Of a DNA stretch of 64,000 nt, positions 4,461 to 49,485 are shown piece after piece. The first letter of the stretch is position 1. Each line of letters starts with the position of its first letter. The position numbers were made by a program, and so were the translations under genes. The notes beneath the pieces were generated by a model, which did not search any database, was not told where the DNA came from, and worked only from the letters and a program-made list of their open reading frames with translations. This DNA comes from Lantana camara. Lineage: Eukaryota > Streptophyta > Magnoliopsida > Lamiales > Verbenaceae. Where the stretch lies: contig CM074863.1 of NCBI GenBank assembly GCA_037501455.1, forward strand, positions 61,485,501 through 61,549,500, read 5' to 3'.

Positions 4461-4931
4461 AATTTGGCTTAAAACGTTTCACATTGGGAAATATTAGGTT
4501 GTTTAACTAATTAGTAGAGAAACCCACCTTGAAAGACAAAAGAAATAGTAAGAAGAGCCTCACTGCTCGTCCTCGTCTCCAACTAGACCCGGATCTGTGT
4601 AAAGAAAGCGAAGTGTAACTTAAATGACCATATAAGATGCACGGCAACGCTATGTACATGATATGAAATGCATAAGAAGTAAAATAATATCATGAAGTCA
4701 CATAATCACGTAATTTATTCACTACGTTCAATACTCGGAGGTTACACGTTCCAACGTATCATAACTTTCATAGTTCATATCAAAACAAGCCATGAATTCC
4801 ATACGATACTCATAACACTTAATAATACATGTTAGCATAGCATAGAAGTTATAAAAGAGGTGGAGGAAGATCAAACAATCAAAGAAAAACAAGAAAAACG
4901 GAACCGGAGTAACGAAAAACCCGCAGGATAG

Positions 4932-5056
4932 AATCCACCCCCATGGATTTTTTCAGAGTAAAAAATCCACCCCCATGGATTCTGGTCAGAAACACTACTG
5001 ACCCAAATCCACCCCCGCGGATTTTTCATAGGAGAAAAATCCACCCCCGCAGATTT
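4932..5056 (-). repeat. Array of four palindromes in LTR I
   Basis: Four inverted-arm units: 4932-4949 and 4964-4981 (AATCCACCCCCATGGATT), 5005-5024 and 5037-5056 (AAATCC.. ..GATTT with an ACCCCCGC-like centre). On the LTR-sense (minus) strand the cores read ATGGGGGT and GCGGGGGT. The array occupies the same relative place as the palindrome arrays of LTRs A, B, F, G, H and J. Confidence 0.85.
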
Positions 5057-6363
5057 GAGTCAAGAGCAAAAAAAAAAAAAAAACGTAGCAAAACAGGGCA
5101 AATGCACGAGAGGAAGCAAAAGTGCAAGAAATCAACTTAAACCTCAATCAAATGCATTCATATACAAGATATAAACTCACACATACTTGCTATATCATTT
5201 TTAAACATCAAAAGTTCAAGGAATGAATTAAGAGCTCATCATCAAATCTATCTTCTCAACTTCATTAATGGCAATTCATTCAAAACCCAACCACCTTGCA
5301 ATTTAGGTCCATAGAATCATAAATACATGTCTTGGGATCAATTATCACTCATAAAATTCAAAGAAAACCAAAGGAAACAAGAATCAATCACAAACCCATC
5401 AAAACCTAACTATTCATTACATATATCCAATCATGCTCAAGAGGTGATGAAATTATACAAAATACATCTTAAATGTACCACAAAGGGATGAAGATTACAA
5501 AAAAAGGTTTACCTTGAAGAAATGGTGGAGAAGGTGGTGAGATGAGCTCAATTCTCACAAATGGAATGTGGGTTTCTTACTTCCTTCTACTTTCTCCTTC
5601 TCTTCTTGATACCTGATAGTTTTTGTTGGTAAAATGGGGTGGGGGACGTGGGTTTTGGCTGAGGGAAGAGAGAGAGAGTGAGGTCTCAAGTGGCTAGCTA
5701 TGTCTTAGGGTGTAGGTACGTTAGAGTAGTTCCGTGAATGTAAAATAGCCATTAGTTGTCGTTTAAAGCGCAAGGTGCTCGTTTCGGTTGTATTTTCGGA
5801 ATTCATAAGGTCTTACAAAAATATAAGGCTAGTCCCATTGAATCCGAATCATCGATTCAAGTTCAACGGAGGTGACAAAACTCGAATCGGAGTTTCCGAG
5901 CTCCAGTTATCACATACGAAACCAAGGGTGCGCTAGTTGCTCGTTAGCCCCCGTTTTGGATTCCAAGATCGAAATAAATTCAAAATTCTTGCAAAAAAAT
6001 TCAAAAACATAAATCGAGTATATATACACGTTCATAACACATAAATCTCCAACATATTAAATTTCCACGAAATTTCGATATCAAATCATATAAGAACGAA
6101 GCTCGTTAACAACACTCATACGCAGTGCATTTACAAATTCAAAGAATTCCATATTAAATAACAAAATTAAATTTCATATTTAAATAAAAACAAGGTCAAC
6201 GAATTACATATAATTAATATCAATAAAATTAAAGATATAAATATTTAACATTTTATCATTTAATTATAAAATTAAATATATGAAACACTTATAAACAATT
6301 AATTCGCGCAATTTGGTGAACACATTCGTCATACCCGTACGGACGAAATATCGGGGTGTCACA

Positions 6364-11528: not shown

Positions 11529-14138
11529 TGTAACGCCCCGGGTTCCGGATGAACAGGTAAGCACGCCACGTGTGCGTTTTGAGCGTAGGATTAATTTTAA
11601 TTCTTTAATTTCATAATATATTCTTACGTGGCATTCATATTTTTATAAAATTCATGAAATGTAAATTATTTGAATTCATATCATTGAAAATATTATTTTA
11701 TGACACGAAAAATATTTATTGCATGAAACAATTACCGAGAGTGTTTCAAATTACCAAATTGTCCCTAGTTGAATATTCTTTAAAACTTTAGGGACTTAAT
11801 TGCATGAATTTCAAGGGCTTGATTGTGCCTAATTCAAATGGTTGCCTACTTGATTGTATAAATTCACAAATTAAGGGATTAATTAGCAATTAGCATATTT
11901 CACATAAATCAAGGATGACGAATCACGTAATATCATCTTCAAGCTTCCATAATCTCATTTCATCAAAATTCATCAACACATTTGCTTCCTCATTCTCGAT
12001 ATTAAGAAGAAAAGGGAAAACGAAGAATTTTACACTTTTCATCAAGGATTTGAAGAAATCATCCAGGTTTTGGAGAGTGATCATCTTCTTCATCCATCTT
12101 CATCATTTCTTAGTCTTTAAAGGTTGGTCTTGGATGAGTTCACGATTCTTGATCATAATTGAGATGGCTAGGGTTTGAGAATTATATGTTAGATGGATTA
12201 ATTGTAGATGGAAGCATGATTAGATGATCATATCTTGAATTATGGCATGATTTGGAGCAAGAATTCTTGAATATTTGACATAAATGACCAATTTTTCATG
12301 ATTTGAGTGTTAAAATGAAGTGTTATTGTTTCTTGAGTATATATGCATGTGTATTGCCAGAATTCATGCTTCTAAATGATCAAAACTTGAATTTTTGTGA
12401 GTTTTTATTCCTTCCCGTAGCCATGCTCTGTTCTGCTCTGTTCTTCAAATTTGCAGAAACTGGGAACGACCGTTCCCAGCCTCAAGGCATTGTGGGAACG
12501 GGCGTTCCCACCCTTTCAAATGAAATAGGCGGCCGAGCATGGGAACGGTCGTTCCCATTTTGGCCTTGGCGCCGGAAGGGCCGTTCCCAGCTTCAGCGCG
12601 TTTTAAATTGGAAAACGTTGGCGCGATTTTGGGGGCTTACGGGAACGACCGTTCCTATTTTTCAAAGGGGTCCGGAACGGCCGTTCCCACCTGACTTGCA
12701 GAACAAAATTCTCTGCATAAAATTACGAAAATAGCCCCTCGATCCGACGACTTCTTTGACCCCGAATTGCTATTATATGTGCTAATATGTACTGAAACAA
12801 CATGTTATCATGCCACATTGCATTTTCCTCGTCATCTCGATACATTTCCGCCGTTCGTCATATTTGGTCCATTTTAACTCATGTCTCACGTATACACGTC
12901 GTGTTTGCACAGGTCACGAGGTTGTGGACGAGGAGCAGGCTCAGTAGAGTATATCCTTGTCATATTTTGTAAGAAAAGGTGAGGTTTTACTTTAGGTATA
13001 TAGAACCCTACCCCCGTTATGTGTTCTTTCGGCCCAAAACGTATTATAAATATAAATGTTTTCCAAAATATAAATGTTCAAGCATGCAAGCAATGATTGT
13101 CATGATTTTCAAGCAAGTTTGGCGAGTACATGATTGCACGTGGGCCCGAGGGAAATTCTTGAGCCAACCGGGAAAGCAAGGGCTGACGGGTGACTCCTGA
13201 ATTATCCTCACATTCTTGGGATCACCCCCGAAGCCACTAGGAGATTAGTGGTGGAAGGAGTTCCGTGTCTAGGGGGTCATGTCCCCTACACACAACATGT
13301 CGTGGATAGTTGAGCCTTGCAAACTCACTATCACCCGGAGGAAGAAGGAGACTGGGGATTAATCCGGCATGTCGGGTTATCCTCGGGTTATTGTATGATT
13401 TCAAGCATGAAACTGTCTATGTGAGCACTAAATGGAATTGTATGATCATGTGTTGAATTGATAAAGCAAGCACGTATTGTCACGTTTGGTGTATAGGTTG
13501 GAGAATCGCCCCTGCTCGCCGGGGTCACACGTTCATGAAATGATTAAGTTAAATTGTTAAAATTGATCAGTTGTAATCTCGGGCAAAGGACAAGTTTCTT
13601 GAACGATATAATTATATTGATTCCAAAGTCTTCACCCGAGGCTACAACTTGCATGTGATGTGTGTTATATATATTTATTGCCCTCACTCAGTCTTCGGTA
13701 GACTGATACTTCACTTTTCAGGTACTTGAGCGCTCGGTCGTGCTAGGCGGGAGTCCGGTCAAGTCTTGCATTGCACGGGTCTAGCATTGTACCTTTCATG
13801 TATAGACTTTTGATAGATGTCATGTTATGATCATGATTGCTACCTTTTTAATACTCTAGCATGTATATATTATTAAGAGATGATAATGTATTGATAGTTA
13901 AGTTGGTACCTATACGCATCTATTCGATAAATATGGTACCTATATGTATAATTGAGTTATTGCTTCCGCTTTTGAATTCGTGTTAGATTTATTTATGTTG
14001 GGGAGTGTCCCGCCTAGCTCGTCATTTTTATTGTCACCCGTTCGCTATAGTTTTGGTTTATATATGGATTTTCCATTTCATACGTGGATCGAGGCTATAG
14101 TGCGGGGGATGTAGTGCCCTGGGGGTTAGGGTGTTACA
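11529..14138 (+). mobile_element. 5' LTR of A (2610 bp)
   Basis: TGTAACGCC..GTGTTACA, starting at the junction with B and ending 8 bases before the primer site. It contains the palindrome array (12460-12688), a putative small exon (12913-12978) bounded by CAG and GTGAGG, the GGGCCC..AAGGGCTGACGGG block (13142-13190), stem 1 arms CTCGGG/CCCGAG (13578-13583, 13635-13640), the CAGTCT/AGACTG hairpin (13689-13705) and the long stem GCTAGGCGGGA / TCCCGCCTAGC (13742-13752, 14008-14018). The frame at 12303-12734 runs through the palindromes and is not a credible gene. Confidence 0.92.
12460..12688 (+). repeat. Six-unit palindrome array in LTR A
   Basis: Units: 12460-12479 CTGGGAACGACCGTTCCCAG, 12492-12511 GTGGGAACGGGCGTTCCCAC, 12539-12558 ATGGGAACGGTCGTTCCCAT, a half-decayed one at 12573-12590, 12640-12656 and 12672-12688. 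The first three have 9-bp arms around two variable bases, and the outermost pair changes from C-G to G-C to A-T while staying paired. Units are roughly 30-50 bases apart. Confidence 0.93.
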
Positions 14139-15229: not shown

Positions 15230-17662
15230 AAGGACTCCGGGAAGAAGCTTAAGGCGACAGGGCCATTACCGAGGAGTCCAAGAGCTCCAGCACCACCACA
15301 GCCACCTCAGAAACCGGGCTGCAGATTCTGTGGGCTTCCTACACATAACTATGATAATTGCAGACGGAGGTTAGGCTTATGTTTGATCTGCGGGAGTGAC
15401 GAGCACATGGTTGATGGTTGTCCGGATCGTCGGGATCCGCCACCTGCAGGACCGAGGCCACTTGTGAGAGCTCGGGCTTACGCACTTGCTGGAGAGGAGC
15501 AGGATGCTGAGATAGACCCCGCCGCAGTAGTTGAAGGTATTATTTGCATCCATGGCACGAACATCCATACATTATTTGATCCAGGAGCTACACACTCCTT
15601 TCTTGCGCACTCTACTGCTATTACTCTACCTTTGCCTGCTATGTGTACTTCTGTGCGCTATCTAGTTAGTACTCCTTTCGGTAGTAGGCGAGAGACGGAT
15701 CAGGTTTACAGGGATGTTCCAGTGGTGATTGAAGGCCGGGAATTTCTGACAGATTTCATTGTTATGCCAATGGAGAGATACGGGTCTATTTTGGGGATGG
15801 ATTGGTTATACAGGCATTGTGCTACCGTGGATTGTCGGGCAAAGAAAGTGCAGTTGGGTTTAGAGGTTACCACGGGTTGTACTTCGAAGACTGTACCCCT
15901 ACTTTCATTTTCAGAAGCTCAGAAATTAGTCAGAGACGGGGCTACAGGGTTCATTGCTTATATTCTGAACAAGCCCAAAGATCAGGTGAAATTAGAGGAC
16001 ACCGAAGTGGTAAAGGAATTTCCCGAGGTATTTCCAGAAAAGTTGGATTCTTTGCCTCCTCAGCGAGAGATCGAGTTTGTGATTGATCTTTTTCCAAATG
16101 CCGAGCCGTATTCAAAGACTCCCTACCGGATGGCTCCAGCGGAATTAAAGGAATTAAAAGTTCAGCTCGAGGCATTATTGGAAGTTGGGTACATTCGGCC
16201 GAGTTTTTCACCTTGGGGAGCACCAGTTTTATTTATAAAGAAGAAGGACGGAACTTTAAGAATGTGCATCGATTATAGAGAGTTGAACAGGATGACTATT
16301 AAGAACAAGTATCCCCTCCCACATATCGAGGAGTTATTCGATATACTTCTGGGTTCCAAAGTCTATTCAAAATTGGATTTGAGACAGGGATACTATCAGC
16401 TGCGAATCCGAGCAGAGGATATTCCTAAGACAGGATTCAATACTCGGTACGGGCACTACGAGTTCGTGGTTATGCCGTTTGGATTAACTAATGCCCTTGC
16501 AGCTTTCATGGACATGATGCACCGGATTTTCTGGCCTTTCCTCGACAAGTTTGTGGTGATATTTATTGATGATATTCTGGTTTTCTCAAAATCAGCCGAG
16601 GAGCACGCTAGGCATCTTAAGCTCGTTCTCCAGACCTTAAAAGAGCATCAGTTATTTGCTAAGTTTAGCAAGTGCGAATTTTGGATCGATCGGGTTTCTT
16701 TCTTGGGACATGTAATTTCAGGAAAAGGGTTGGAAGTCGATCCCTCGAAAATCGAGGCCGTACTCAAGTGGGAGAAACCAAAGAATGCCTCGGAAATTAG
16801 AAGCTTCTTGGGATTGGCCGGATATTACAGAAGGTTCGTTCAAGACTTCTCTAAGATTGTTGCACCGTTGACCCGATTGACCAAGAAAGATGTCAAGTTT
16901 GTCTGGGACGAGAAGTGTGATCAAAGCTTTAACTTTTTGAAAGAAAAGTTGGTCTCAGCTCTGGTGTTAGCACTTCTTGAGGGTTCAGAGGAATATGCAG
17001 TGTATACAGATGCTTCTAAAGAAGGCTTAGGTTGTGTTTTGACTCAGAAAGGAAAAGTGATCGCCTATGCTTCCCGAAAGCTAAAAGATTATGAAAGGAA
17101 CTATCCAACACACGACCTAGAGCTTGCAGCCGTGATTTTTGCTCTCGGGAAATGGAGACATTATCTATACGGGACTTCCTTTGAGATTTTCACCGACCAC
17201 AAAAGCCTCCAGTATTTATTCACACAGAAGGACTTGAATATCAGGCAACGGCGTTGGATGGAAAAGTTAGAAGATTATGATTGTACAATCAAGTACCATC
17301 CAGGAAAAGCGAACGTGGTCGCCGATGCACTTAGCAGAAAGGCGAGTGTATCGAGTTTGGAAATAAAGGAAATTGATGAAGTTGCTCCAATTGTGTTAAA
17401 AGCTCGGGTTTCTAATATCACAATTCAGCCGGAATTGAAGTATCAGTTATTTGAGGCTCAGAATAAGGATCCGGAAGTTCAGAAGCTTGTAAGAAAAGCT
17501 AAGGATGACCCTGAGAGTCCGTTTGGGTTTGATGAGACCGGGTTACTTCGATTTAAAAACAGAGTAGTAGTACCTGAAGAATTGAAACGGGTTCTACTTG
17601 AAGAAGCTCACAAGTCAGCTTATTCGATCCACCCAGGAGGAAACAAAATGTATAAGGACTAG
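15230..17662 (+). pseudogene. pol: Element A: gag zinc knuckles, protease, RT, RNase H, start of integrase
   Basis: Continues the gag frame after TAG. Two CCHC knuckles ([28 protein letters not shown]) lie at about 15320-15425. The protease active site is DPGATHSF (Asp codon about 15578). RT has IDYRELNRM, the catalytic FIDDIL (Asp pair 16568-16573), and TNALAAF where relatives have TNAPAAF. RNase H is marked by YTDASKEG and TDHKSLQYL (about 17000-17330). The integrase zinc-binding histidines begin near 17610. The frame stops at TAG 17660-17662 within the HHCC region (D and E have an L codon there), then continues in frame. Copying and integration would need all these parts fused, so this copy is inactive. 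Confidence 0.9.
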
Positions 17663-19143: not shown

Positions 19144-20344
19144 TCCCTGAGGATCCACGGCCGTGGAGCCAAAATCCATGGCCAGGGATCATGTCCAGGC
19201 CTTAAAAAAACACAGAAAGAGCAAGGGACTCGTGGGAGAAGGAAACAAAGCACAAAACTCAACCAAAAATCAACCAAAACACATCAAATTCAAGACATAA
19301 GTTCACATATGCATGCTCTAACACATATATCAATTATAAGGCATGAAAACAAGGATTAAAAAAGTTGGTCTTTTTAAGCTTTTAAGCTCCAAAATGGTGG
19401 AACACTCATGCTTCCTCCAACAACTCAAAATCTAACAAATATGTATCTTATTAGCTCCAAAGAACATCATATTTCAAGTCTAGATCAAATGACTCAAGAA
19501 AGGAGGCATGTAATCAAATTTTCATTCAATCATACAATTCATCATCTTCCTCATGCTTCATATATACAAAGATTCAAGAGAAAATAATCGGATAGAAAGA
19601 AAGTTCACGTTGCAAGGAGTAATAATCTTACCTTGTATTGTCGAAGAGGTAAAGAACAAAGTCGAAGTTGAGCTCTTGAAGGTTAGGGGTTGGAGCTTCT
19701 CTTCTTCTCTCTCTCTCTCTCTCTCTTGTTTCACGTAACAAATAGGCATAAATGGGGCTGATTTCAGTCCCATAAAGGGACTAAAACGGGTAGGGTCAAG
19801 TGAAACGGGCCGAGTTAAAAAGATCCGGTCCAAACGGATCGGATTGAAGCCCAAGGGGGTCCAAACAGCTTCAGAAAAATACAAGGCTAGTTCATTGAAT
19901 CCGAATTGCCAAAATGAGTTCAATGGTGGTTTCGAAATTCGAATCCGAATTCCCGAGCTCAAGCTACATGGATCAGAACCCAAGGCACGCTAAAACGAGT
20001 TAGGCCCTCGAGTCCCTTAACAAATAAAACGGCTTAAGAACCGTATCAAACAAACTCTAAAACTAGAAACGCGCTTGCAAACACATTCAAAACTCACATA
20101 TAACAAGCATACCAAGATTTCACAAAAATCGAAATTGAATTCCGGCACATAACGAGCAAATTACGGTCATGCAACCTTAAACGTTAAAATTCAAAGTTCA
20201 AGAATATAAACAATTAATTTCATATAAATTCAAATAATCATATAGGAATTAAATTAGCATAAAAGTACATAATTAAAGAATTAAAAGCACAAATAACACT
20301 CTCATTAAGGCCTACCTGTACGGCCGGACGAGCGGGATGTTACA
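19144..20344 (-). mobile_element. 5' LTR of B, upstream (U3) part
   Basis: Minus-strand LTR starting TGTAACATCCCGCTCG at 20344 and followed to 19144. About 320 bases match B's 3' LTR (8049-8371). It includes the shared U3 block (GAATTCCCGAGCTCAAG on the plus strand, about 19949) and B's remaining palindromes at 19142-19189, including TCCACGGCCGTGGA (19154-19167). Roughly 1 kb of B's LTR between here and 11528 has been lost with A's 3' LTR. The 141-aa frame at 19558-19983 is not supported as a gene. Confidence 0.82.
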
Positions 20345-23166: not shown

Positions 23167-24369
23167 TGTAACGCCCCGATTTTTCAGCTGTATAAGTATG
23201 ACGTATGTGTTTACGTAATTGCCCATTTAAATTATCTAATTATGTAATTAATTATTAATTATAATTATTTTTAATTATTTCATTTTAATTCGTTATAAAA
23301 TTATATTTTTTTAATATTTTAAAATGAATTTATTTTTATTATCGAAATTATGAATGAAATGTTTCTATGATTATAATTGCGCGCCGTTCTTATTCGAATT
23401 CAATTCCGATTTTTGTGAAAACTTGGTATGAATGAATTATGTGATTTATGATTATTCTCGTATGCTCGGCGCTTGATGTCGGACTTGTTTGACTTGGTTT
23501 CGGATTTATTTTTTTTTAACGGAACCAAAAAGGGGGTTAAAGAGTATTTAGAGCACCTAGGGTTCCGGGCATCATACCTCGAGCTCGGGAACTCGGATTC
23601 GAGTTTCGTCACCTATGTTATAATTGTATCAAAGATTTGGATTCAATGAAACAAGCCTTATATTTTTCTAAGTCCGTTTGAACCTCCGAAATCCAATCGA
23701 AATAGGCTACGTCCGCAAAATTACCACCCTTAGCCATTTTAATCATAACATAACCTATACCTAACCAAATTAACCATGGTCTGGCTCTACTTAACCCCAA
23801 CTCAATACTCTATCACGTATATACTCCCATTTTTGTACTACACAAGGAGAGGAAGAGAAATTTGCAGCTCTTTGGAGATTTCATCACTATTCTCACCACT
23901 ATTCACTTTGAGAGATTTTGAGCTCAAATCTCAACCAAACTCCATCATATTCAAGAGGTAAGTTCATTTAATTGTGGTCACTTTAATCTATCGATTTCAA
24001 ATTTTGAGCATGATATGAATTTATACGTGAATAGTAAGGGTTTATGTATATATTTGAGCTTCCTTGTGTTTTCGTTGAATTAATGCTTGAAACTTGATCC
24101 CATGGGCTTCATTTAAGGTTATATGAACTTGATTTTGTTGGTTGATGGATGGAGGTTGAGATACCATTAATGCTTGAAGGTTGTCATATACGTACATGAT
24201 CATACTTCTTTTTTCTCCTTGCGAAATGCTGCTGCTGCGTGTTAGTTTTGGGATGAGATTTACCTTTGTTTTTCCTGCTGTTTTGCATGTGTATTGGCTG
24301 CTACGTTTGTGCCCTGTTTTCCTCTGTTATTACCTGCTGCTGCTGCTATTTTTTTCCTGAAAGGATAGG

Positions 24370-24476
24370 GCGCGCGGCCGCATGGTTTGCAGGCAAGAAC
24401 CGTGCGCGGCCGCGTACTGGTGTCTGAATTGTTTGGGGCCGCGCAGCTTTTGAACTAAAATTACGCATGGCCGTGC
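24370..24476 (+). repeat. GC-rich palindromes in LTR F
   Basis: GCGCGCGGCCGCATG (24370-24384), GTGCGCGGCCGCGTAC (24402-24417), GGGGCCGCGCAGC (about 24435-24447) and GCATGGCCGTGC (24465-24476), centred on GCGGCCGC or ATGGCCGT. They follow a CTGCTGCTG-rich stretch, as in LTRs G and H. Confidence 0.75.
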
Positions 24477-24744
24477 AGCATACCTCGACTTTGCAGTAGT
24501 TCATAGGTTATTAATGCTTGGTTTTGTGGTTCAACTAATTGCTACACTTGTGTATGATATATTTAATTGCTGCATGAAGTGTACATATATATATATATAT
24601 ATATTATGTAATATGCATGTAGTGTATGTTTATATATATTAAATATTACATATATATGTGTATGTTAAATGTTTAATTGTGTATTTTAATTTATATAAAT
24701 ATATATGCATGCATGAATATGTATATTAGGTACGTGTATGCATG

Positions 24745-24758
<14 letters not shown>

Positions 24759-24823
<65 letters not shown>
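24759..24823. repeat. Compound AC/AT microsatellite
   Basis: About 14 CA units followed by about 18 TA units, inside LTR F. The aligned region of F's other LTR is not in the window. Confidence 0.95.
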
Positions 24824-24827
<4 letters not shown>

Positions 24828-26502
24828 GCATGCATGATCTTCTTTTGTGTACGTATATATGTATATTAAATGTTTAAATTGTTTAATTCTAATTTTTAAA
24901 TATGATATATTATGTGTATGATTTTGTATGAAGTTTGTGGATTGAATTGTTGTAATGTATACATGATATGATCAAGAACGAATATGAATGAATACGAACT
25001 CCTCATATATTAAATGAATTACTTGATTATGTGGCTTTATGACATCATATTACTTCTTATACACTTCATATCATGACTATTGCATCGCCGTGCGTCGAAT
25101 ATGGTCATTTTGAGCCTCACTTCATCTCTTTTGCACAGATTATTGGTCCAAACGGAGTGGAGGTCGATCAGTGAGGCTCTTACACCGTTCCTTTGGTTTT
25201 CTAAGGTTGGTTTCTCTTCTGTAGATATGAATCAACCCCATATACCCAACGTGAAAGTTTTAGGCCAAAGTATTTATATATATATATAGAGAGAGAGAGA
25301 GTCCTTTCAAAGGAGTCAACGATTTTCAACGTAAAGCCCTTCTTTTATGTATCCCTACCTTATGATTTTGGCGAGAGCATGATTATGAATGGACGGGACC
25401 AGGGACTTGATGCATGTGGCTATCCGGGGAGGCAAGGACTGACAGTGATCCCGTGAGCTAATCCCACCATGAACTACGGTGAAACCGACCTCGTCAGGAG
25501 TTGGCGAGGAAGGGGAACCGGGCTTTTGGGGCTTCATGGACCCCTACTAGCCGTATTAATTGGGAGACACGTTCTCCTGGATGGGTCCCCCGCGGCACCG
25601 GTTACACCACCGGGAGGAAAAAAACCTGTTAGTGGCATGGGTTTGCCCATGGTCCACTCGGATAATATCTTCTGTTGCGCATGGTAGACGCGTTTCTAAC
25701 CGAAGGAAATGTGTAAATATTATGAATGAATGAATGATAATGATTGAATGACCGAATGAACGAACGAATGATTATGAAAGAATGATTATGATCGAATGAA
25801 TGATTATGAATGCATGTTGTGTGATCACTTACAATTATGAACGAATGGATAATGTACACAAGAGGTGAAGGTTGGAGAATTCACCGACTTGCCGGGCTCA
25901 CGTATTGGCCTAATGAATGAAATGAAAGAATTGATTGTTGTAATCCCATGCGTTGTTTTCTTTTTTTTCACCCGCTTGGGAAATTGTTCCAAAACCTCGC
26001 AAGGGATTATAACCTGCATGTGTATGTGTTTAATTTCGATATTATTATTGTATTAAACCCCTGTTTTATACTCACCAGTCTCTAAAAGATTGAACCCGGT
26101 GTGTTTTCAGTTTTCTTGCAGGTTTTGAAGCGCTAGGCGGGGTTTCGAGTCTTTCTAAGTCCTGCATTAGAGTTTAGTTGTATCTTTACGCTTGCACTCA
26201 TTCTCGAGTTGTTATTTATGATTATTAACGCTTGTGAGTGCCATGAATGTTATTTAATTTGAGCCTGTAAGCTCTTTAATTATGCTAGTGAAAGTAAATG
26301 CTTCCGCACATGTATTAATCCTCTGTTATTGTTTTTGCATTTTGCCTACACGGTTTCGAAAGTTAGTTCCCGCCTAGCATAGTGAGTGAGTGAGTCCCCG
26401 TTCGCTCTGATCTGGCATGTGTATGGACTATCCATTTCATATGTGGGTCGGGTCTTAGTGCAGGGGATATGGCGTCACGCGCTTGGGCACTACATCATTA
26501 AG

Positions 26503-26530: not shown

Positions 26531-29208
26531 AGGGTTCTCGTGTCGTGTTGAGTCAGTTTAGGTCGAACGACATAGGAACAAATTGTCAACGTGTGCATTG
26601 CATTGAATGTTCATTGTTAATTGTTACAAGTTGATAGAATTACTTGTTAAATGTGGTTTACTTTCAGTTTCGTTGCTTTTGTGTTTTATTTTGCATATAA
26701 TATGCGTTTATTAGTTTAATTATGTGCCATAAGAATATACTAATCCACATGCATTTATACTTGAGTTGAGTTCTTGATTGTAGATCGTTACCCCGCTATA
26801 AAGGCGATTATTAACCTCAACTACAAGTTTCTTCTATCAAACCAACGAAGAGATTATGGAGTTATGGGGATTTGAAAGTCGGGTGTTGAATTTTCATGGC
26901 TTACAAAGTAGAACGACCTCTCGTTGCTCAACATCATGATAGAGGACTTGGATCACGGATGAGTTCATCAATTCCATTCACCCTATAAATGTTGATGATT
27001 ATCAACATAAGGCAAAGTGGGGAAGTTCAAGAATAACCTTCGGTTCGGATCTAGATTCGGGATGTATCCAAAGTCTTCTAACTAAGATGCATGGAATGGA
27101 GAGTGTTAATCATGTGGATTCACAACGGTGTCAAGAAAAGAAGCTAAATTGATATGACTACAAGCATGGATCAATGAATGGAAGTAAAGCAAAGATAGCA
27201 AGGAGGATTGAAGAATTTTGATTTGTGTCATCTTCTTGGGACTTCGGGATATGCGGTGATACAAAGGAGCGAGCAAGGACTTGGAAGCACCATCAGTTAC
27301 TGAATAATGTTCAACCTTACAATGATGCTCACCACATCGAGATTAAAGGACAGGATGTCGTGCTGACCCACTATATTGGTGGCAGGTTCACAGCATTCAT
27401 AGCACATGCATCATACACTGCATTGTTATATTTTAATTTATTTTATGAACTTTAATATTGTGATTGTTATCCGTGTTGCATGTTTGCTGTGAAATACGTG
27501 CTTCACAACATTAGCATTTTAACTCGACATGCATTATTTTCGTGTTTACTTGTTAGGATGCTTCAAATACTATTGCAATCAAAGCCCTATTGAATCGAGT
27601 TGAAGAGAAACCTTTTGTGATAAGGTTAAGACATAGATGAGAATGGAATTCCAGAACTTAGGACTTGGAGTTGACTTTGGGTTGTTCAGATCTGGGTGAG
27701 AATAGAAGTTGTGGTCTCAGATTTTAGGAGAACTTGGAAAGCAAAGGATTTGGGATGTTCTTCTAATTTATCACTTTAAGTGAAGGTGAGTAACACACAG
27801 AACACCATCCCTAACAAGGATTGCTCATTTCAAGTGGGACAAGAATTTCGATTATAAGATGATGGATAAAGCTCGACCTATGAAGGTGGAAACTTTTAAG
27901 GGGGAGAGCACAACCAAAAGACAAACTTGAAATGCAAGGTTGTGCTCAAATAAGTGTTTTAGTAGGAACAATGGAAATGCAAACTGTGGAAGATATGAAT
28001 GTTCTAATGATGATGATAGGAAAAGGAATGAAACGGCCTTATTAGTTAAACCTTCAAAGTGGAAGTTAAGCTACCAAACTTGGGTCGAAGATCGCTATGG
28101 GGTAATAATGAAGAGATTAACTCGATCGACATTTATGGGAACGAGATTCGGATCTTGAAGATGATGGAATTATAAGGAAGCATCTATTGAACTTTTAGGT
28201 CAGTTCTGGAAAAAGAAAACCAGATCAAAGTATTATATTTCGAGATGGTGACAATGAAGGTAAATTCAACCAAGTATTAAAAGGGTTCGGATGACATAAC
28301 AAAATAAAATCCTTAATAAGTCATCAGTCATCTCTCCATGATGACTTGGAAAGCTTTAAGATGAGAAGAATCGAAAAAGGGTCATTATTGAAGGACTTGG
28401 ATCAAACCTTAAGAATCATCAAGGAGGTCTTATTTTCGGTTAAAGAATTGAATGGGTTGGAACTGAAGGTACGCTTAAAAGCTTCAAATGGATGAATGCT
28501 CCACGAAAAGATCGATTTAAAATTTGGGGAACCGATGGTCTCAACTTGATTTGGAAGGAGTTCGTGAGGAAGACTGAGACCGTTATTCTGAAGGTTTATT
28601 TGAATTCTGAGAACTTCACTAAATTAAAGAAGTAGACATGATTAAGAAGACCGACTTCAAATTTGGAGATGTAAGGTAAGAATCATTTTGGAAATGCAAA
28701 TCGATTGGGTTAAGGCCAAACGCATAATCAAAAACTAAAGAAGGTAATAGGGAGTAAGAGTCAGAACAGAATCAGGAATAAAATCAACTAAGGACTATCT
28801 TCTTCTCAATCGGACACACACCAAAGATATTAAAAACAAGTCATGAACCGAGCTAACTTTTGAGTCAGGCCATGCATGAGGCAATAAAGTTACCAACTTC
28901 GAGTTTCTTTACCATGGTGAACGGTACATGAAACATTCATGGCATATGCATACATCCAAATTTAGTTCAAATAAATTTTGATACTATATACTTTGATTCT
29001 CGACTGTATTACTTACTTTTGCATGAGTGATGAACGATGTGATTGATATTTATTCCTTGCTCCTTGTGTAATTTGTGCTTGACTCATTGCTGCTTCCTGC
29101 CTGTGTTTATTATGTGTTGTACCGTGTTGCTTAGGAGTCTTGGAGACACCCTTGCCTTGTTGTTTATGAGAGATGGGGTTCTCTCATTGTTATTCGAGCG
29201 ACGGGGTT
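26531..29208 (+). other. Non-coding interior of F, upstream of E's insertion
   Basis: About 2.7 kb with no gag or pol similarity; the longest frame is under 80 codons. The sense strand is purine-rich. Part (about 28910-28960) matches B's interior. It ends in a repeat array (GAGAGATGGGGTTCTCTC at 29168-29185) that E interrupted; the array resumes at 55831. GGGTT at 29204-29208 is E's target duplication. Together with its LTRs this makes F a large non-autonomous element. Confidence 0.72.
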
Positions 29209-31921
29209 TGTGACGCCCCGTCTTTCTGGTTGTCAGGTACAACGTCACGTGTGTGTTAGTTTGAGTGCTACGTGTACTTTAATTTTATCTTCTATTTGTT
29301 GGATATATAATCACTGATACTTTAATTGTTTATTAATCAACTAAGTGTGAAGTGATTGCTAATTTTATTATTAAATGTAAAATAATAAAACTAACTGTTG
29401 GTTATAATATTAATTATAAATTATGAAATTGATACTATCTAATATCTTTAAATGTGAATTCATATCATTTGTTAATAATCTAAAGTGAAGTCATTTAGTT
29501 TACAAGTTATCATTAGTTCAAAATTAATGCATTCTATTATATATATACGTATTCACGTTTGGGCATTAAAAATATACATGCATATTTTTATAAAAATAAA
29601 ATAGAAATCTCATCCGGTCATGTAAAACAATACTCGTGTCAACTTCATTCCATCTAATTAAATTATCCTAGCCAATTAGCAATTAGACTCACGTGTATGG
29701 AAAATACATTAAAAACTATAGAAATAGCTTTGTCATTCTAAACAGGTATTTGCACGGATTCCATTTGTCCTAAAATAATAAAAAGTAATTTTAACAAGTA
29801 GACAAATAAAAAGGGTAATAGATATATTAAATAAAATATATTTAGTGTTAAGTTGTTGCTAAAAAATTTTAAGATAAATCAGGAGATCGGCGGACTCCAA
29901 ACCAAAAATAATCTAAATTTGAATTTTATTTTGTGTACATTAATTAAGTCATGAAATATCAGGACTTCAGGCCGACATACATTGAATAACCATCAGCTTA
30001 GTATCTTCTATAGGAAATAACAAAAGAAAAACAAAACAAGAAAAGGGTAAACACAGGAGCTCTTCACTCCTACACAACAAAGAACAGGTAATGAAGATCT
30101 TTAAGTGTTACACCTTTTTTTTTTGCGAATTGAAGTGGTCAAGACTTAATATTAAATTCCATCTTATGCTTTCATATGTTGTGGTTCGTAATTCGGTAGA
30201 CATATTTGATAAATGGTTCTTGATTAACTCTTAAATATAACAAATTGTTCATATATAAACATTTACTCTTAATTCATGATTCCCGTGATTAATCGGAAAA
30301 TGATATACATATATGTGAATCCGTAAGGAATTGAATATATATGTCTACTGTTCTTGGTTATGATATCATTATATGGTTCATACAAATTCAGCTGTACCAG
30401 AGGTGATTGTTATATTACAAAAAAAAATTACAGATTTAATAGCTTATTATATTATTATAATTAGGACAGCTTGTGAACAATCATTTTGACCCCGTGCAAC
30501 GAACTCTGCATGTATAATATTTAAATTAATATGTGATTTATTCTTTAGAAATATATTGATTATGAATTCCTAACTTGTTTACTTACTTTATTTGGTCATG
30601 TGTGCATTCACTGAACATGTTTATTTTATAATATGGTCTCATTGCACGCCAAATCATCCATATCATTGAATTTAGTTGCCGTGCATCATTACTTGGTTCA
30701 TTTTGAGTCGAGTCTTAACCGAAAAGTATTCGGTTTGTACAGATAATCTCCAGGGCAGAGAGGGCCAGGTCGAGTAGGCATTCTTGTTGCCTCTTTTGTC
30801 GTTTACTCCATTCAGGTGAGGTTTTTCTTTATATCTATCGACCTAGAACCGTGCATGTGATAGAAGAGCCAAAATATTTTACTAAAAGCAACCCTTTTAT
30901 TATTATATGTTAATGAAAATGTTTTAATCAATAACCGAACCAATTGGCGAGATGTGTGTGTGTGTTATGTTGTGGGGCCCAGGGGTCGTGCTTTGGGTGA
31001 ACCGGGGAGGCAAGGGCCGACGGCTAGCCCATTGTACGGTCTCATATCGAAGGGGATGAACCCGGAATCCATTAGGAGGTTAGTGGAGGATGGAGTCCCG
31101 AGGGCGAGGGAGTCATGCACCCTTGTTTCTCATGTGTTTGTGGATGGGGAGGGTTGGCCGCCCGAACCATCAACCCGGAGGAAAAAGGATGTTTAGGTAA
31201 TGATATGATTGTGTGTGTGAACGACCGCAATGATTGAAAATGAGGAGTAAAGGTTGGAGACCGCTCGTTCTCGCCGAGCAACCTACAGTAATTATTTAAT
31301 GAATTGAATGTCCGTAATCCCATTGTGCGAGTTTTGAATTTTCCAAAATTAATATGTTTTGATGAAGAACGTATAATGGGAGTAGGGAATTGTGTGCTTG
31401 CATGTATATTTATATATACGGGTGCGTGTGTAGCCCCTCACCAGTCCTTTGACTGACCCCTCCATGTTTTTTTTTTCCTTTGCAGTTGCAGGTACACGTG
31501 GTCGTAGCTAGGCGGGAAAGTTAGTATAGTCTTTTACTTTTGTACCTAGCTAGATCTTTATTCTCTTGTTGGAGTTATGCATTAGATACAGCATACAATT
31601 AAGTGGTAATACTGAGGCCTTGTTGACCTCCTACACTTTTGGATACTTGTTACTGTTTTGTTAGCCTTGGTGGCTAATGTACATATATTTTGCTTTCGTA
31701 GATTACATAGTTTGAACTCGTTTGCATATTCGTTCTAATTACGCTTCCGCATATTCGTTCTTGTTGCGCACTTGAATGATAGGGTCTAGTCCCGCCTAGC
31801 CAGGAGTGTTTTTGGGTTGTCACCCGTTCGCTATGACTTGGTGCGTATACGGATGTCCGTTTCGTACATGTACTGGGGCATAGTGCGGGGGTTGTGGCGT
31901 ACCGACGCTCCGGGCGCTACA
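29209..31921 (+). mobile_element. 5' LTR of E (2713 bp)
   Basis: TGTGACGCCCCGTCTTTCTGG to ..GGGCGCTACA. It contains a small-exon pattern (30743-30815, TGTACAG before and CAG-GTGAGG after), the GGGCCCAGG..AAGGGCCGACGG block (30975-31025), stem 1 TCCCATT/AATGGGA (31318, 31375), CAGTC/GACTG (31442-31455) and the long stem GCTAGGCGGGA / TCCCGCCTAGC (31507-31517, 31790-31800). The 80-codon frame in the GGGCCC block also occurs in the other LTR but is not kept in other LTR families. Confidence 0.95.
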
Positions 31922-33020: not shown

Positions 33021-33777
33021 TGTGACAGCCCGGTTCGGGATCGGATCAAAAAAGGTAAACTAAGAGCGACGTAAGGGCGTTTATAGAACTTGATCCGTAT
33101 TTTAAATAAATCAGATCATGCATCCCTACATGAATTGAGTGCTCATATGTGATATTAGGTGACCAAAGGGAGGGAAACTACCTTTAAACCCTATAAGCAC
33201 TACTTATTTCCGAACCAGCACTATACCGTTTTATTCAAGAGACCTCAAAGAACCTATACCTACTTTCTTGGAATTTTTCAACTCTCTTTTCATTGCTTTG
33301 AGGTTTCGTTTTTGTGTCCAGAGCAATTTAAGAATTTATTTTCAAATAAGAATTCCTGTCGGTAAAAAATATTTCCTTCGTTAGAATGATTTAGCCCTTG
33401 AGATCATCACCATAAAGTTCCTCGAATTTTTCTATATTTTTGGAAAGCCTTTCGGATCTTCAAATCTTATCCTAGTATTTATTTCATAATTTAATTAATT
33501 TTCGAAATTCAAGAAAATCAAATCTTCCGAAGCTTATAACTTTTAAACCGTACGTCCGATTTCGACCCGTGAGTAACTGTTTCGAAGCTAATTTTATTTC
33601 CTAGCTCTTGGACACTTTTCCAACTTCAAAAATACGCAGGAGAAAGGTGAAATTACCAGAATACCCCTGCTGTGACAATTATGTAAAGAAGGAAACCTAT
33701 TTTTGGAAATTTCATAAAGTACCCCACGTTAAGTCCCTAAAATAAATATTATTTGCACTTTGGTCCTTCCCAACAAC

Positions 33778-33785
33778 TATAAATA
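33778..33785 (+). promoter_or_regulatory. TATA box of D's 5' LTR
   Basis: TATAAATA, also present in the 3' LTR at 46908-46915. It is followed about 30 bases later by a pyrimidine-rich start region (CATTCTCTTCCTCTCCCCC). The start site is inferred. Confidence 0.7.
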
Positions 33786-34324
33786 AGTGTGTTGGGGTCT
33801 CATTTTGTGCTCATTCCATTCTCTTCCTCTCCCCCTAGTGGCCGAACTCCTCCCCCCTTTTAAGGTTAGTTTTCTTATTTTTTTTATGTTTTAATTAGTT
33901 TAATTTATGTTTTAATTTGTGTTTTATTTTATGTTTTAACTATGCTAGGTTTAGGATTTAATTTATGTTTTATTTTGTGCATGAATTATGTGATTTAATT
34001 TATGCTTTAATTTTTCATGAATTATGAATTATATTTCTTATAGTATAGTTTATTATGAAATGTGTTACATAATTTAATTTTGTGACAAATTAATTATGTG
34101 ACAATTATGCTAGCATGTTATATGTTACATTTTAATTATTTTATGATCATACTTAAGTAATTTAATTTATTTCATGATTTAATTAAATGTTATATGTTAT
34201 TTAATGTTACATAATTAAGGTATAACCTATAGTTTTAAATGTTACATGTTTAATTAATTGTTACATATAATTACTTGACCAATTGATATATGTTATGGTA
34301 TACATGTATAATATACGTATACGT

Positions 34325-34618
34325 ATTTGATTCCAATACGTATAAATACGTGTATACTTTCGTATAAATACTATGTGTATTTCCCTAATAAATACGTATG
34401 TACTTTTGTATAAATACCGTATGTATTCTAGTATAAATACCGCATGTATTCTTGTATAAATACAGTATGTACCTTGTATAAATACTATATAAATACGGTA
34501 GGTATCCCCGTATAAATACCGTATACATACAGTATAAATACCATATACATACTATATAAATACACGTATATATACAGTATAAGTACAATATACATACAGT
34601 ATATTTACCGTATACTTG
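34325..34618 (+). repeat. TATAAATAC repeat array in LTR D
   Basis: About ten exact TATAAATAC words plus variants, spaced roughly 15-30 bases and often inside GTAT..ATAC inverted contexts. The 3' LTR copy (about 47470-47690) has fewer units because of a deletion of about 47 bases. Frames here (for example minus 34385-34588) are translations of the repeat, not genes. Confidence 0.9.
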
Positions 34619-34623
34619 AATAG

Positions 34624-34685
34624 TGACCTTTGACCTTTGACCCTTGACCTTTGACTTTGACTTTGACTTTGACTTTGATCTTGAC
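34624..34685 (+). promoter_or_regulatory. Array of eight TTGAC[CT] words (W-box-like)
   Basis: TTGACC or TTGACT repeated eight times at about 6-base spacing, in both LTRs of D (3' copy about 47709-47766). TTGAC[CT] is the core recognised by plant WRKY factors. The array lies about 850 bases downstream of the TATA box, so a transcriptional role is inference. Confidence 0.6.
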
Positions 34686-35276
34686 CAAGAATTTTGAATT
34701 TTAACCTAATTGATCATTTCAAAGAGACGAATTCAACGGTCAAAGCCTTTTTCGAAAATTCTCAAAAACAAGGGATCAAAGTAGATTTCAAAGTTCACAT
34801 TGGGATTGTTCTAAGACCCTAAGAACATACCCCTAAGCTTTTGATACGAGCTTTCTAATGAGACTAATCGTTTGCCCGAATTCTTTCTTCGGGAAAGATT
34901 ATCCCTTGTTTAAATGTGTCGTATTCTTTTCAATCTTACACTTCAATACTTGACTACCCGCACTCAATCATGCATCATTAATCATGTGTGGGACTCAGAC
35001 CCTTAAGCTCATAGTAGTCTGTCACTTACAGGAGATAATACCAAGTTCTGGGATCCGCAGGGTACTGTGTGAACCCTGTCTTCTACCAACTATCAGCTTA
35101 TCTAAATAAATAGGTGAGGTTTAAACTATTTCAACTGGAACCATGAATATTCCTTCGTTTTCAAATGGTTTCAAAATCAACGCCTTCGGGTGCAAAGATT
35201 CCTATCATTCAAGTTAACGTTTTCCCGTTTGGGACAATGCTTCGAGTTTAAAGTCAATGATCTCTGATATACGTTC

Positions 35277-35281
35277 TGTTC
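35277..35281. repeat. Target site duplication of solo LTR J, left copy
   Basis: TGTTC, repeated at 39060-39064. D's 3' LTR has a single TTGTTCACTG at this place (about 48356), which shows the pre-insertion state. Confidence 0.96.
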
Positions 35282-36996
35282 TGTAACGCCCCGATTTCTC
35301 GGACGTAAAGGTACGATGTATGTGTTTACCAAATTGCGCGAATTAATTGTTTTTATGTGTTTTTATATTTAATTTTATTATAATTGTTATTATTTTATTA
35401 TATTATATTATAATATTTTATTCTAATATTATTAATTATATATATATTTCGTATTATTTATATATATGTATATATGTTTAATTATTATATTATTAATTTA
35501 ATGATTATACTAATTATATGTTATATTAATTAATCATGTATTAACTAATTATTTATATATATATATATTTATACGTGAGATTATATTTATGCATGAAATC
35601 ATATATTTTTGCATGGAAAATCATATTCATGCATGAGATTATAAAATTTTGCATGGGAATTATTTTGCATGGATTTTATAGAATTTTGCATGGAAATTTA
35701 TTTATATTGCATGAATTGCATGGGAAATTTATAGGTTATGCATGAATTGTATGATTGAGCTTTGATATTAATTTTGTGCTTCGTTCTTATATGATATGAT
35801 ATCAAATTGCCACGATTTTGTAATATGTTGTACATATATGTGTTATGGACATGAATATATGCTCAATTTATGTTTTCGAATTCATTTGATAGGTTAACGG
35901 ATTTAATTTCTATTGAGGAACCAAAACGGGAGCTAACGAGCACTTAGCGTACCCTTGGTTCCGAATTTAATATCTTGAGCTCGGGAACTCGGATTCGAGT
36001 TTCGTCAACTTCGCTGAACTCGTAACGAAAATACGAGTTTAGTAAACTTAGCCTTATATTTTTCCCAATTCATTTGAAACTCCGAAATCCAACCGAAAAA
36101 CGAAACGGAGACCAACTTGACCTTGTTACACTAAATCAGCCATATCTTGGCCAAACCATAACCAAATTAACCATGGTTAGATTCTTTGAAACCCTAACTC
36201 AACCCTCTATCATGCTATAATCAGCCTTGACCGAGATAATCCTCACACAAGCCCCAAAACTCAGCCAAAGCTACTGTTTTCTCTCCAGTCCCGTAACCCT
36301 TCACCAATTGGAGATTTTGGAGCTCAAATCTCATCCAAACCTCAACCAATCATCAAGGTAAGTTAAGAGTTGTATTGTATGATTAATTCTGGTCATTTTC
36401 ATCTTTTTATTCATAATTTTGAGCATGGTTTCATCCATTTCTGGGCTTATTACCGAAAGTATGAGTTTTTGAGCAATATGTTGATCTTCTTCATTTCTCA
36501 ACGATTTAAACTGATTCCAAGCTTGAGATTGTTTGTTTTGACTTCCTCATATCATTTATGAACATTAATTTCGTGGTTGTTGAAGAATTTATGACATATC
36601 ATTTATGAAAATTTTCATAAATCTCACGTATAGGTCACGTATGGTTGTTGTCTTGATTGATCACGTTTGGAACTCATTTACTTGTTGGATATATGTTAAT
36701 TTGCTGCTTCTTGGTTGGCCTTAACTGAGTTGAATGAATGGAGAAGGAGTGAATTGATCATGCCCTGTTTTCTGCGAAAAAATTGCTCTGTTTCTGGACT
36801 GCTTTTGCTGTCATTTTTGCTGCGTTCCTTCTTCATGTTTTGCTGCCGTTTTTCATGGCTCTTGGGTATGTAATCTTGTTGAATTCTTGCAGCAATTTGT
36901 GCCTTAGTTTGTTGCTTGTTTTGCTCGCTTTTCTCGTGCCTTGAGTTTGCCCTGTTTCTGCATTTTTCTGTCCGAAACTGGGTTGTTTCTGCAGGA

Positions 36997-37121
36997 CGAC
37001 ACGGGGGTGTCGTTTGTGCCCGTTCCGGCGTGGCACGGGGGTGCTGCATAGCCTGGAACTTCTGTACCGAGACACGGGCGTGTCTCGGTCCAGGCTAGGT
37101 GGGTGACACGGGGGTGTCACC
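36997..37121 (+). repeat. Four-unit palindrome array in LTR J
   Basis: CGACACGGGGGTGTCG (36997-37012), GCACGGGGGTGC (37033-37044), a 24-base unit with 10-bp arms ACCGAGACAC (37066-37089), and GGTGACACGGGGGTGTCACC (37102-37121). The CACGGG[GC]GTG centre is constant; outer arms differ from unit to unit but each is self-complementary. Confidence 0.93.
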
Positions 37122-38486
37122 CTGTTTTGCTCAATTCTTCTCCTGCGTCTTCTTCTTCCTTGCTTGTGTATTTCTGGAGATGTATGCTGCTGTGTATATA
37201 TTCATTTTGATGCTTTGGGTGGTACGTGCTTGCATGGCCTTTATAATATTAGTGCATGCATGTATATTTATACTATATATATATATATATTAGGTTAAAC
37301 ATGCATGTAGTATATATGATTTTGTGCATGCATGTTTATGTGTGTGTGTACGTGCATATATATGTATATATTATATATATTGTATATTATTATATAGTAT
37401 TAATAATATATATTATATTATATATATTTATTATATATTTTAATTATTATTTGATTTAATTTAATTATTGAAATTAATTGATTTCTATTTCGCGTATTTA
37501 TCCGACTGACTTTTGATTGAACGTTTTATTTATTTCATTCCTAAATGTGAATATGAATAATATATGTGTTATGCTTATTAATTGAATGTTAGATTAATTG
37601 ATATGAATTATGAATTATGAATGTATGAATTTATGTAATTTATGTGAATTTATGAACTTATGAAATTGAATGAAATAAATTAACGAATGAATGAATATAT
37701 GTTTTAAATTTCTTAATCGTGCACATGAACATTTTATTGATATAATATGATCATTTATGCATTCATGTCATATGCACTTCATTGCCGAGCGTCATATGTG
37801 GTCATTGAGTCTCATACCTTTCCTTTTCCACAGATTCGGGTTTGGTCGGAGACGAGGGCGAGCCTTGAGACGTGTGTGCCCTTATTTCTGTCTTGGTAAA
37901 GGTGGGTTTTCTCTTCTATTAGTTAAAACAACCTTACATATTCCTTATGTGCAAAGTTTTAAGCCAAAACCGTATATTTATATATATCGAGTCATTTCGG
38001 GTAAATCATTTCAAACGTATGACCCCTTTCTTTTATTTATGAATCCTACCTTATGTTTGGCGAGATATTTATGATTTATGATTGCACGGGCCCCGGGACT
38101 TAGTATATGTGGCTAACCGAGGAAGCAAGGGCTGACGGGGATCCCATATACTAGTTCCAACCAAACTACGGTGATACCGGCCCTCGCTAGGAGTTTTAGC
38201 GGGGAATGGGAGCTGAGTGCCTTTGGGGGATTCATGTACCCCCATTGGTCCATGTATGAACCGGTGGTCGAGCCTTGCAAACTCGTCCACCACCCGGAGG
38301 AAAAAGGAGTATATGAATGATTATGATCATGTATTTATGAGCACAAAAGATTTATGTATGATAATGAATTATTGAATAATTAATTATGAATACACGAGGA
38401 GTAGGTTGGAGATTGTGCACGCCCACTCGCCGGGCCATAAACCCTTATGAACATTTATGAACATTTATGAATGAATATGACCGTCG

Positions 38487-38940
38487 TAATCCCGTTGATG
38501 TTTCCTTTTTGTTTTAACCACTTGGTAAAATCTTACTAAACTTCATACGGGATTAGGGCTTGCATGTATGTGTTTAAATTATGCGATATTATATAATTAT
38601 GCCCCGTTTTTATACCCACCAGTCTCTTTTAGACTGAACCCGGTTGTTTTCAGTTGTTTTGTGCAGGAATAGGAGTGTTAGGCGGGAATACAAGTCGTCT
38701 AGGTCTTGCATTTGTGTTTAGCACTTCCTTTTGTCTCATACTCATACTATTGTTGCTACTTTACTTATGATTTTTGTAGGCCGTGAGTGCCGTTGAATAT
38801 TTGGATACTCTTGTATATCTGATTTTGGAGCTTGGTGGCTCGCTGTATATATATGTTTGTTTATTCTTGCTTCCGCGAATTTTATTTAGCTCTGATTTTA
38901 TGATTCTTGCACTGATTGGTTTAAGGGTTAGTCCCGCCTA
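38487..38940 (+). ncRNA. Conserved three-stem RNA region in LTR J
   Basis: Stem 1: TAATCCCGT (38487-38495) with ACGGGATTA (38547-38555). Stem 2: AGTCT (38621) with AGACT (38631-38635). Stem 3: TAGGCGGGA (38679-38687) with TCCCGCCTA (38932-38940). Equivalent stems with changed but still complementary bases occur in LTRs A, E, F, G2, H, I and B. It would be folded in the element transcript; no folding was computed. Confidence 0.55.
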
Positions 38941-39064
38941 GCATAGCGTGTGTGTTGTGTCCCCGTTCGCCGTGGATTTGGCACGTGTATGGACTTCCAT
39001 TTCATATACGGGTCGGGTCCCGGTGCGGGGGATGTGGTACCTAACGCTCGGGTGCTACATGTTC

Positions 39065-49100: not shown

Positions 49101-49485
49101 TCAGGATTGCTAGTTACTTTTCCTTTGTCCTGTATAGTCGTGGTTACCTCTACCTTTACGTTGCATGTTTTACTATGAGAACTTGTTCAGGCTACGACCT
49201 GAATTACTTGGACTCCGTTTTTATTATGTTCCTTTGTTTTCCTATTGGACTAATGTTTTATGTTAATATTATGGCTACTTGTTTCTGTGGTTATTCATAT
49301 ACTACTGTGTTGCATTCATGTTTTCAAAAGTTTAAAATTATTCTGAAATTCTGCTGCGTTGGCAACACTGGTTACTCTGATCTTTGTTATGTTCTGTCCG
49401 TTCGCCGAAGTATCTCTCGAGTAATAAAGCTTCCTAGTTACTTGGGTGATATAACGGTGCGGGGTTGTGGCGTTGGGGCGCTACA
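46149..49485 (+). mobile_element. 3' LTR of D (3337 bp)
   Basis: Uninterrupted copy matching the two parts of the 5' LTR, with TATA box (46908), TATAAATAC array (about 47470-47690, shortened), TTGAC array and small-exon pattern. It ends ..GGGGCGCTACA, followed by AAAGC (49486-49490). The frame opening at 49175 reads through the end of this LTR into E's pol, giving 103 or so LTR-derived residues that are not part of any real protein. Confidence 0.96.

Follow-up and report, generated by a model that had tools for sequence, protein, structure and literature searches.

Seven of the nine long terminal repeats (LTRs) that we examined in the window (the whole stretch of DNA analysed, 64 kb long) carry arrays of short palindromes, namely A, B, F, G, H, I and J. 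The earlier note had placed such palindromes in most LTR families, and the observation is larger than was claimed. Our favoured reading, to which we give a probability of about 0.42, is that the units are symmetric DNA sites, with strand switching driven by the palindromes as the likely source of new arms. Each unit would be a dyad-symmetric site in which two inverted half-sites (the arms) flank a short GC-rich centre, and the arrays, usually of two to six units, would lie in the first intron of the leader in LTRs of Tekay/Del-like chromoviruses. There they would probably act in cis, as an intronic enhancer or a chromatin element, and be bound by a protein in the form of a symmetric dimer. Each family would have half-sites of its own, maintained by selection. 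New arms and flipped centres would probably come from a reverse transcriptase or repair polymerase switching strands at the palindrome, which would keep both arms matched.

Palindrome arrays in nested chromoviral elements

The window consists of Ty3/gypsy chromoviral plant elements nested one in another. Their pol pieces match RVP_2, RVT_1, RNaseH, SH3_Tf2-1 and Chromo in the Ty3/gypsy order, and the two Chromo hits score 25.1 and 24.0, at and just below the Pfam cut-off of 25.1. The host elements have the trait of Tekay/Del chromoviruses, a Ty3-type pol with a C-terminal chromodomain together with long LTRs, and we take Tekay/Del to be the name of their clade. LTRs in the window start with TGTAAC or TGTGAC, and a PBS-like word, TGGTATCAGAG, occurs four times. 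The Gag of A and that of E2 each have two tandem CCHC zinc knuckles (15320-15420 and 49493-49595), and the Gag of E1 has one canonical CCHC knuckle and one degenerate one.

Self-comparison gave the nesting. E2 (about 29208-31921 and 53113-55825) holds E1 (33021-35281 plus 39060-40187, and 46149-49485), and the 5' LTR of E1 holds J, a solo LTR at 35282-39059 on the plus strand with 5-bp TGTTC flanks. LTR H, a close relative of J, starts at 60209 on the plus strand and extends to the window end at 64000. LTR A is a 5' LTR at 11529-14138 on the plus strand, running from TGTAACGCCCC to GGTGTTACA, with a PBS-like TGGTATCAGAGC then at 14147. The LTR of B lies on the minus strand. We examined one copy each of A, B, F, G, H, I, J, E1 and E2, and left truncated pieces (A 3', F 3' and two further B-like pieces) unscored. 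Palindrome arrays were also looked for in the E1 and E2 LTRs, and none was found there.

The words that the earlier note listed were recovered by strand-symmetric palindrome scans and by hairpin scans. Array A (12460-12688, plus strand) has the six units that had been described, at 12460-12479, 12492-12511, 12539-12558, 12573-12588, 12641-12656 and 12673-12688, with centres GACC, GGGC, GGTC, GGCC, GACC and GGCC in that order. However, only three of them, the first three, contain the exact form GGGAACG-NN-CGTTCCC. A fourth good unit is a perfect 14-mer at 12674-12687; the unit at 12641-12656 has a G.T end pair, and in the unit at 12573-12588 the closing pair is broken.

Array J (36994-37122, plus strand) has units at 36994-37015, 37030-37047, 37066-37089 and 37101-37122, with centres GGGG, GGGG, GGGC and GGGG. 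Array H (61957-62013, plus strand) has intact units at 61957-61980 and 61992-62013 and two decayed units upstream, and array G (58452-58477, plus strand) is one intact unit, GGAGTCAC-GGTC-GTGACTCC. On the minus strand, array B (19154-19189) has units at 19174-19189 and 19154-19167, and array I (4932-5056) has four units of the form AATC(TGC/CGC/CAT/CAT)-GGGG-GTGGATT, in two nested pairs. Neighbouring units of array I (5056-4932) also pair mutually, giving longer nested hairpins. These five arrays match their earlier description, including G at 58455-58474 and B at 19154-19167. The centred units described for array F (24370-24480, plus strand) are present too, but only the one at 24402-24417 is good and the others have decayed. 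GC content of the arrays is 0.47-0.67, and observed over expected CpG is 0.38-1.31.

A centre shared between families does exist, as had been claimed, but the proposed ACGG-N-CGT is better written C-GNNC-G, mostly with A-T next to it. The centres GGGG, GAGG, CCCC and CGGG depart from it.

For a chance test we used a strict rule, perfect 7-bp arms with a 4-nt centre, against 200 shuffles per LTR. It finds three units each in A, J and H and one in G, with shuffle means of 0.05-0.09; one of the three in H is a separate palindrome at 60874, outside the array. None of the 200 shuffles reaches the count of A, J or H, and 9 of 200 reach that of G. No perfect 7-bp unit exists in F, I or B, which do not exceed chance by this strict test; what speaks for these three is their weaker units and their relatives in other parts of the genome.

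Position in the predicted leader intron

The arrays had been said to lie after a leader-like donor and before a small exon, and by consensus splice sites only, this placement is right. On such sites, intron 1 is predicted at 12123-12912 in A (plus strand, with a weak donor AAAG/GTTGGT and the acceptor GCACAG/GTCACG), at 36358-37833 in J (plus strand, ATCAAG/GTAAGT to CCACAG/ATTCGG), at 61248-62840 in H, 57972-59020 in G and 23958-25138 in F (all plus strand), and at 4595-5512 in I (minus strand). The predicted introns of the 3' copy of E1 (46995-48111) and the 5' copy of E2 (30088-30742), both on the plus strand, are without an array. LTR B has a donor at 19631 but is truncated immediately below the array, so no acceptor is visible.

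J, H, I, F, G and B share block D1 (35917-36107, plus strand), the most widely shared LTR block, and all six have a donor with GTAAG or GTAAA. All of these LTRs other than B also have an acceptor and a small exon, which ends in a donor like AAG/GTGGG, GTTGG or GTGAGG. A, E1 and E2 are laid out in the same way, with donors that differ (GTTGGT, GTTAGT and GTAATG). From the predicted donor to the array downstream of it the distance is 337-638 bases. Judging from these consensus sites, the array-bearing part of the LTR is probably spliced out as an intron.

Two further motifs were seen in these LTRs. The word GCYCTGTTYY, a companion motif of the arrays, occurs 10 times in the window against 0.8 expected; it is found in A, F, H, I and J, always on the LTR sense strand and ahead of the array (12425, 12435, 24311, 36762, 36785, 36949, 61652, 61677 and 61839 on the plus strand, 5090 on the minus strand). 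Block D1 of J, H, F, I and B also retains another palindrome, resembling GGAACTCG-GATT-CGAGTTCC, about 320-390 bases upstream of the leader donor (23588, 35984 and 60874 on the plus strand; 19953 and about 5900 on the minus strand). The one at 60874 is the unit that the strict rule counted in H.

The position would also suit units that act as RNA hairpins in unspliced genomic RNA. The intron would then stay only in the full-length transcript, where the zinc knuckles of Gag, or else a factor for splicing or export, would recognise the stem-loops. The arrays follow the predicted donor as retroviral packaging signals follow the major splice donor, and the paired knuckles in the Gag of A and E2 would suit such binding. 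In HIV-1 Psi and SL2, GGAG and GGUG loops are bound by two knuckles, according to the part of PMC7599994 that we draw on. Most loops in the window fit G-R-N-S, and hairpins with this centre, a class picked after the window had been seen, make up 18 of 31 inside intron 1 vs 4 of 66 elsewhere in LTRs (Fisher 4.5e-8). Mismatches in the inner six pairs of window units were G.U nine times and C.A never (7:0 without two register-shifted duplicates; 8 and 2 with the seventh pair), and the sense folds are stable, with z-scores of -0.9 to -7.1. From the window, a packaging hairpin with a G-R-N-S loop was our favourite.

Arrays across the host genome

The 16-mer GGGAACGNNCGTTCCC of LTR A has 37,901 matches in the host genome (1.27 Gb, 378 contigs), with 0 for the reversed control. 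The word of block D1 has 7299 plus 7378 matches, or 14,677 genome copies, and GGTGACACGGGNGTGTCACC has 4758 plus 4840; the control was 0 for both. Using only the D1 word, we then picked 30 further LTR places (20, then 10), all in the first 18 Mb of one contig. We counted an array when at least two units fell within 200 nt, with at least 5 of the inner six pairs Watson-Crick and at least 3 G/C in the centre. Arrays were found by this rule in 19 of the first 20 LTRs and 6 of the next 10, thus 25 of 30, with shuffle means of 0.57 per 20 and 0.28 per 10. The rule is not very specific, as 27 of 160 random genome pieces also passed, and two of the 19 (L121 and L129) resemble chance hits outside an LTR array. 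With a stricter rule, 20 random 10-kb stretches gave 36 hairpins, five of them with the centre class of the window or its complement, and four of these five sit in two arrays (L104 and L110).

There are usually 2-6 units per LTR; the rule lists 8, 8 and 10 in L077, L080 and L086, some of which are not array units. New arm types were CCCCACTAAC (L112), CCCAAAC (L114, one unit), TCGGACAC (L115), GGTCAC (L130 and L137), and CTCTCCCC with GAGTACCC (L118, L120 and L127; L133). A CGGCCG core is seen in A (in part), B, F, L112, L115, L118 and L130 and is absent from J, I and L117. GGGAAC and AATCC units adjoin within one LTR in four cases (L077, L079, L080 and L086), and LTRs that look dissimilar have GGGAAC arms in common. 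From the two arm types found side by side, arrays seem to have been exchanged between LTR families.

The larger sample weakens the case for hairpins in genomic RNA. Its sense-strand loops include CCCC, GCCC and CGGG, so a loop with an exposed G is not conserved, and we dropped the G-R-N-S packaging hairpin as a universal explanation. G.U is not clearly above C.A, at 8:5 in 49 distinct units and 8:2 in 30 more, which still leans to G.U; this tally omitted L121, L129, L079 (no orientation), L104 and L110. The BLAST orientation of L082 conflicts with its flank word. For pairs 5-10 the G.U and C.A fractions are 0.09 and 0.09. In 6 of 8 stretches the antisense fold has a z-score at least as good as that of the sense fold, so the z-scores do not favour the sense strand and we rejected sense-strand folding as a discriminator. 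In HIV-1 itself, a change of the GGAG loop had no large effect on packaging, as stated in the same part of PMC7599994. We consider the RNA hairpins unlikely.

Scans of other databases were also run. Rfam at an E-value limit of 1 gave 12 hits, of which 11 resembled miRNAs and one was a snoRNA; none reached its gathering score or overlapped an array. In IMG/VR, the A word gave 68 raw matching stretches, the E2 pol protein and the D1 word matched 0, and a pol alignment matched 44 stretches, none of which was confirmed. GTDB gave four Ty3-type pol pieces (L069-L072) in assemblies labelled as bacteria; these are perhaps eukaryote contamination. A peptide reading through array A had 4 candidates, none of which scored.

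Arm matching and conservation

For arm matching, we selected units on the inner four pairs only and then scored pairs 5-10. The set was 50 units in 16 arrays; the window supplied three of the arrays and the first 20 LTRs picked by D1 supplied 13, with L121, L129 and the GGGAAC loci L077-L091 omitted. The Watson-Crick fraction was 0.60 within a unit, 0.44 between units of one LTR and 0.33 between LTRs. Within units there were 181 Watson-Crick pairs vs 146.2 (sd 8.5) when the 3' arms were dealt out within each LTR, a value reached in 1 of 5000 permutations, although near-copies (L117, L124 and L131) and the dubious L114 are among the 16 arrays, so the figure overstates independence. Arms thus differ among families yet stay complementary, as the earlier note had it, some of the LTRs being close relatives.

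Conservation could be followed most closely in the J family. Between J and H, unit 3 is identical at 26 of 26 positions and unit 4 at 22 of 22, and the 100-bp bins from 36882 to 37181 that contain them are 66-77% identical. In six J-type LTRs picked independently of the palindromes (J, H, L113, L123, L126 and L128), unit 3 has identities of 1.00 and 0.97 in its arms and 0.87 in its centre, vs 0.50 in the next spacer, 0.57 in the upstream flank and 0.49 in the downstream flank. Unit 4 has arms at 0.96 and 0.76 and a centre at 0.83; L126 and L128 show a one-sided arm change there, and L123 has lost the 3' arm. When seven more sequences were added, all picked by the unit 4 word and with L145 and L117 omitted, the arms of unit 3 stood at 0.98 and 0.96, units 1 and 2 at 0.71-0.79, and the centre of unit 4 at 0.56. 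This last value is low because CCCC replaces GGGG in L142-L145, with the arms unchanged.

At +1086 to +1127 from D1, the GGTGACAC unit has a sense-strand GGGG in 16 LTRs and CCCC in 5, and one further sense GGGG unit at +1055 brings that total to 17; several of these are LTR pairs of single elements, and the pattern fixed GGG on one strand and is hence blind to other centres. These counts cover C1 up to 29.88 Mb, where 5 units more have GGGC or GGGT, all sense. The arms are unchanged in all four flipped-centre units that were aligned. The orientation of the centre seems free, and the five flipped units, in closely similar LTRs, may go back to one event. Because GGGC, GGCC and GCCC centres exist, stepwise change of the centre is an alternative to flipping. 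By eye, four LTRs of the CTCTCCCC type keep the arms of the first unit around the centres GGCC, GGGC, GGGC and GGGA. The idea of a constant core with variable arms therefore holds between families, but within the J family it is the arms of unit 3 that are most conserved and the centre that changes.

Functionless copying could produce much of this. Strand switching at imperfect palindromes would remake perfect arms and invert centres, and the arrays would renew themselves at an ancestral site. This would give arm matching unit by unit, mismatches with no clear strand bias, flipped centres, and cases such as L117, in which unit 2 is nearly an inverted copy of unit 1 by eye; a part of PMC7202029 describes template-switch mutation at quasipalindromes in E. 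coli. However, the arms should then drift, and those of J unit 3 stay constant across LTRs whose flanks are at 0.49-0.57. The C-GNNC-G centre common to most arm types also speaks against copying as the whole explanation, which we think unlikely.

Another possibility is descent only, in which old arrays have been passed down and have moved from one LTR family to another through recombination, with no present constraint. The adjoining arm types and the GGGAAC arms common to different-looking LTRs would follow from this. It was already weakened by the contrast between the arms of unit 3 and their flanks, the excess of matching within units counts against it as well, and we regard it as improbable.

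The conserved letters in both arms, together with a centre that has possibly flipped, lead us to favour the symmetric DNA site. The sequence of an RNA stem is hard to read, so conservation of the arm letters suits a DNA site, for which Sirevirus palindromes are a precedent, and the stems of unit 3 are conserved by letter beyond what pairing alone would ask. Among the options that the earlier note had offered (a structure, a dimer-bound site or a copying process), structure in the sense-strand RNA is thus disfavoured, and the other two do not separate cleanly.

There are points against the DNA site too. One host factor cannot explain many arm types, so several factors or one coded by the element are needed, and half-sites are not usually as long as these arms, which measure 8-10 bp or more. 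The arrays lie downstream of the predicted donor, apparently unlike the boxes of Sireviruses, which lie upstream of TATA. E1 and E2 manage without arrays, and in J, conservation is lower in the first two units and an arm of unit 4 changes. Still, from the abundance and, in the family examined closely, the conservation against decaying flanks, something seems to hold the motif.

Comparison with known systems

Cotton elements carry ACACGGCCGTGT words. We looked for reports of such palindrome arrays in chromoviruses among open-licence PMC papers by title and abstract and found none, and a search of papers for six palindrome strings gave no retrotransposon paper by title among those listed. The earlier note knew of no named element of this type, but there is a published precedent. 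LTRs of Sireviruses (Ty1/copia) carry palindromic RM boxes with a CGG-CCG core and element-specific arms, as described in the part of Bousios et al. 2010 (PMC2829016) that we draw on. There the boxes number at least 8 per element, precede both the TATA box and the CpG islands, and are called absent from the classic Ty1/copia elements compared.

In both systems, going by that part of the paper, dyad-symmetric palindromes cluster in the LTR, with a GC centre in common, element-specific arms and high identity between units of one element. The differences are that RM boxes belong to Ty1/copia and our arrays to Ty3/gypsy chromoviruses, that there are at least 8 copies per element vs usually two to six per array, that the boxes are upstream of TATA and the arrays downstream of a predicted leader donor, and that the core is CGG-CCG there and C-GNNC-G here, with CGGCCG only in part. 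The arrays are apparently a chromoviral, intronic variant of the RM-box feature.

Palindrome clusters are also found in LTRs of maize Sireviruses, with strong predicted secondary structure and a link to small RNAs (Bousios et al. 2016, as cited in a passage of PMC10760457), and the same passage describes Ty3 elements as generally without an obvious structure peak. HIV-1 Psi and SL2 likewise have stem-loops near a splice donor and a Gag with paired CCHC knuckles (from the part of PMC7599994 used above), but in our larger sample loop identity was not kept and a G.U preference was no longer clear. BARE, an LTR element of plants, has both a spliced and an unspliced pool of RNA, although its intron is within gag, as far as the relevant part of PMC3735527 goes, and ours would be in an LTR leader with palindromes.

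We can imagine, as a rather speculative extension, that chromoviral LTRs carry fast-renewing dyad sites with family-specific half-sites, in which reverse transcription at the palindrome creates new arms that match and inverts centres. Selection by a dimeric factor, perhaps encoded by the element or supplied by the host separately for each family, would then fix the arm letters, and Sireviruses and chromoviruses would have reached this independently. The many variants with matched arms are a natural set for testing whether LTR palindromes are a binding site, an RNA signal or a by-product of copying. Our comparison extends the idea of the Sirevirus RM box to Ty3/gypsy elements and to a predicted intron.
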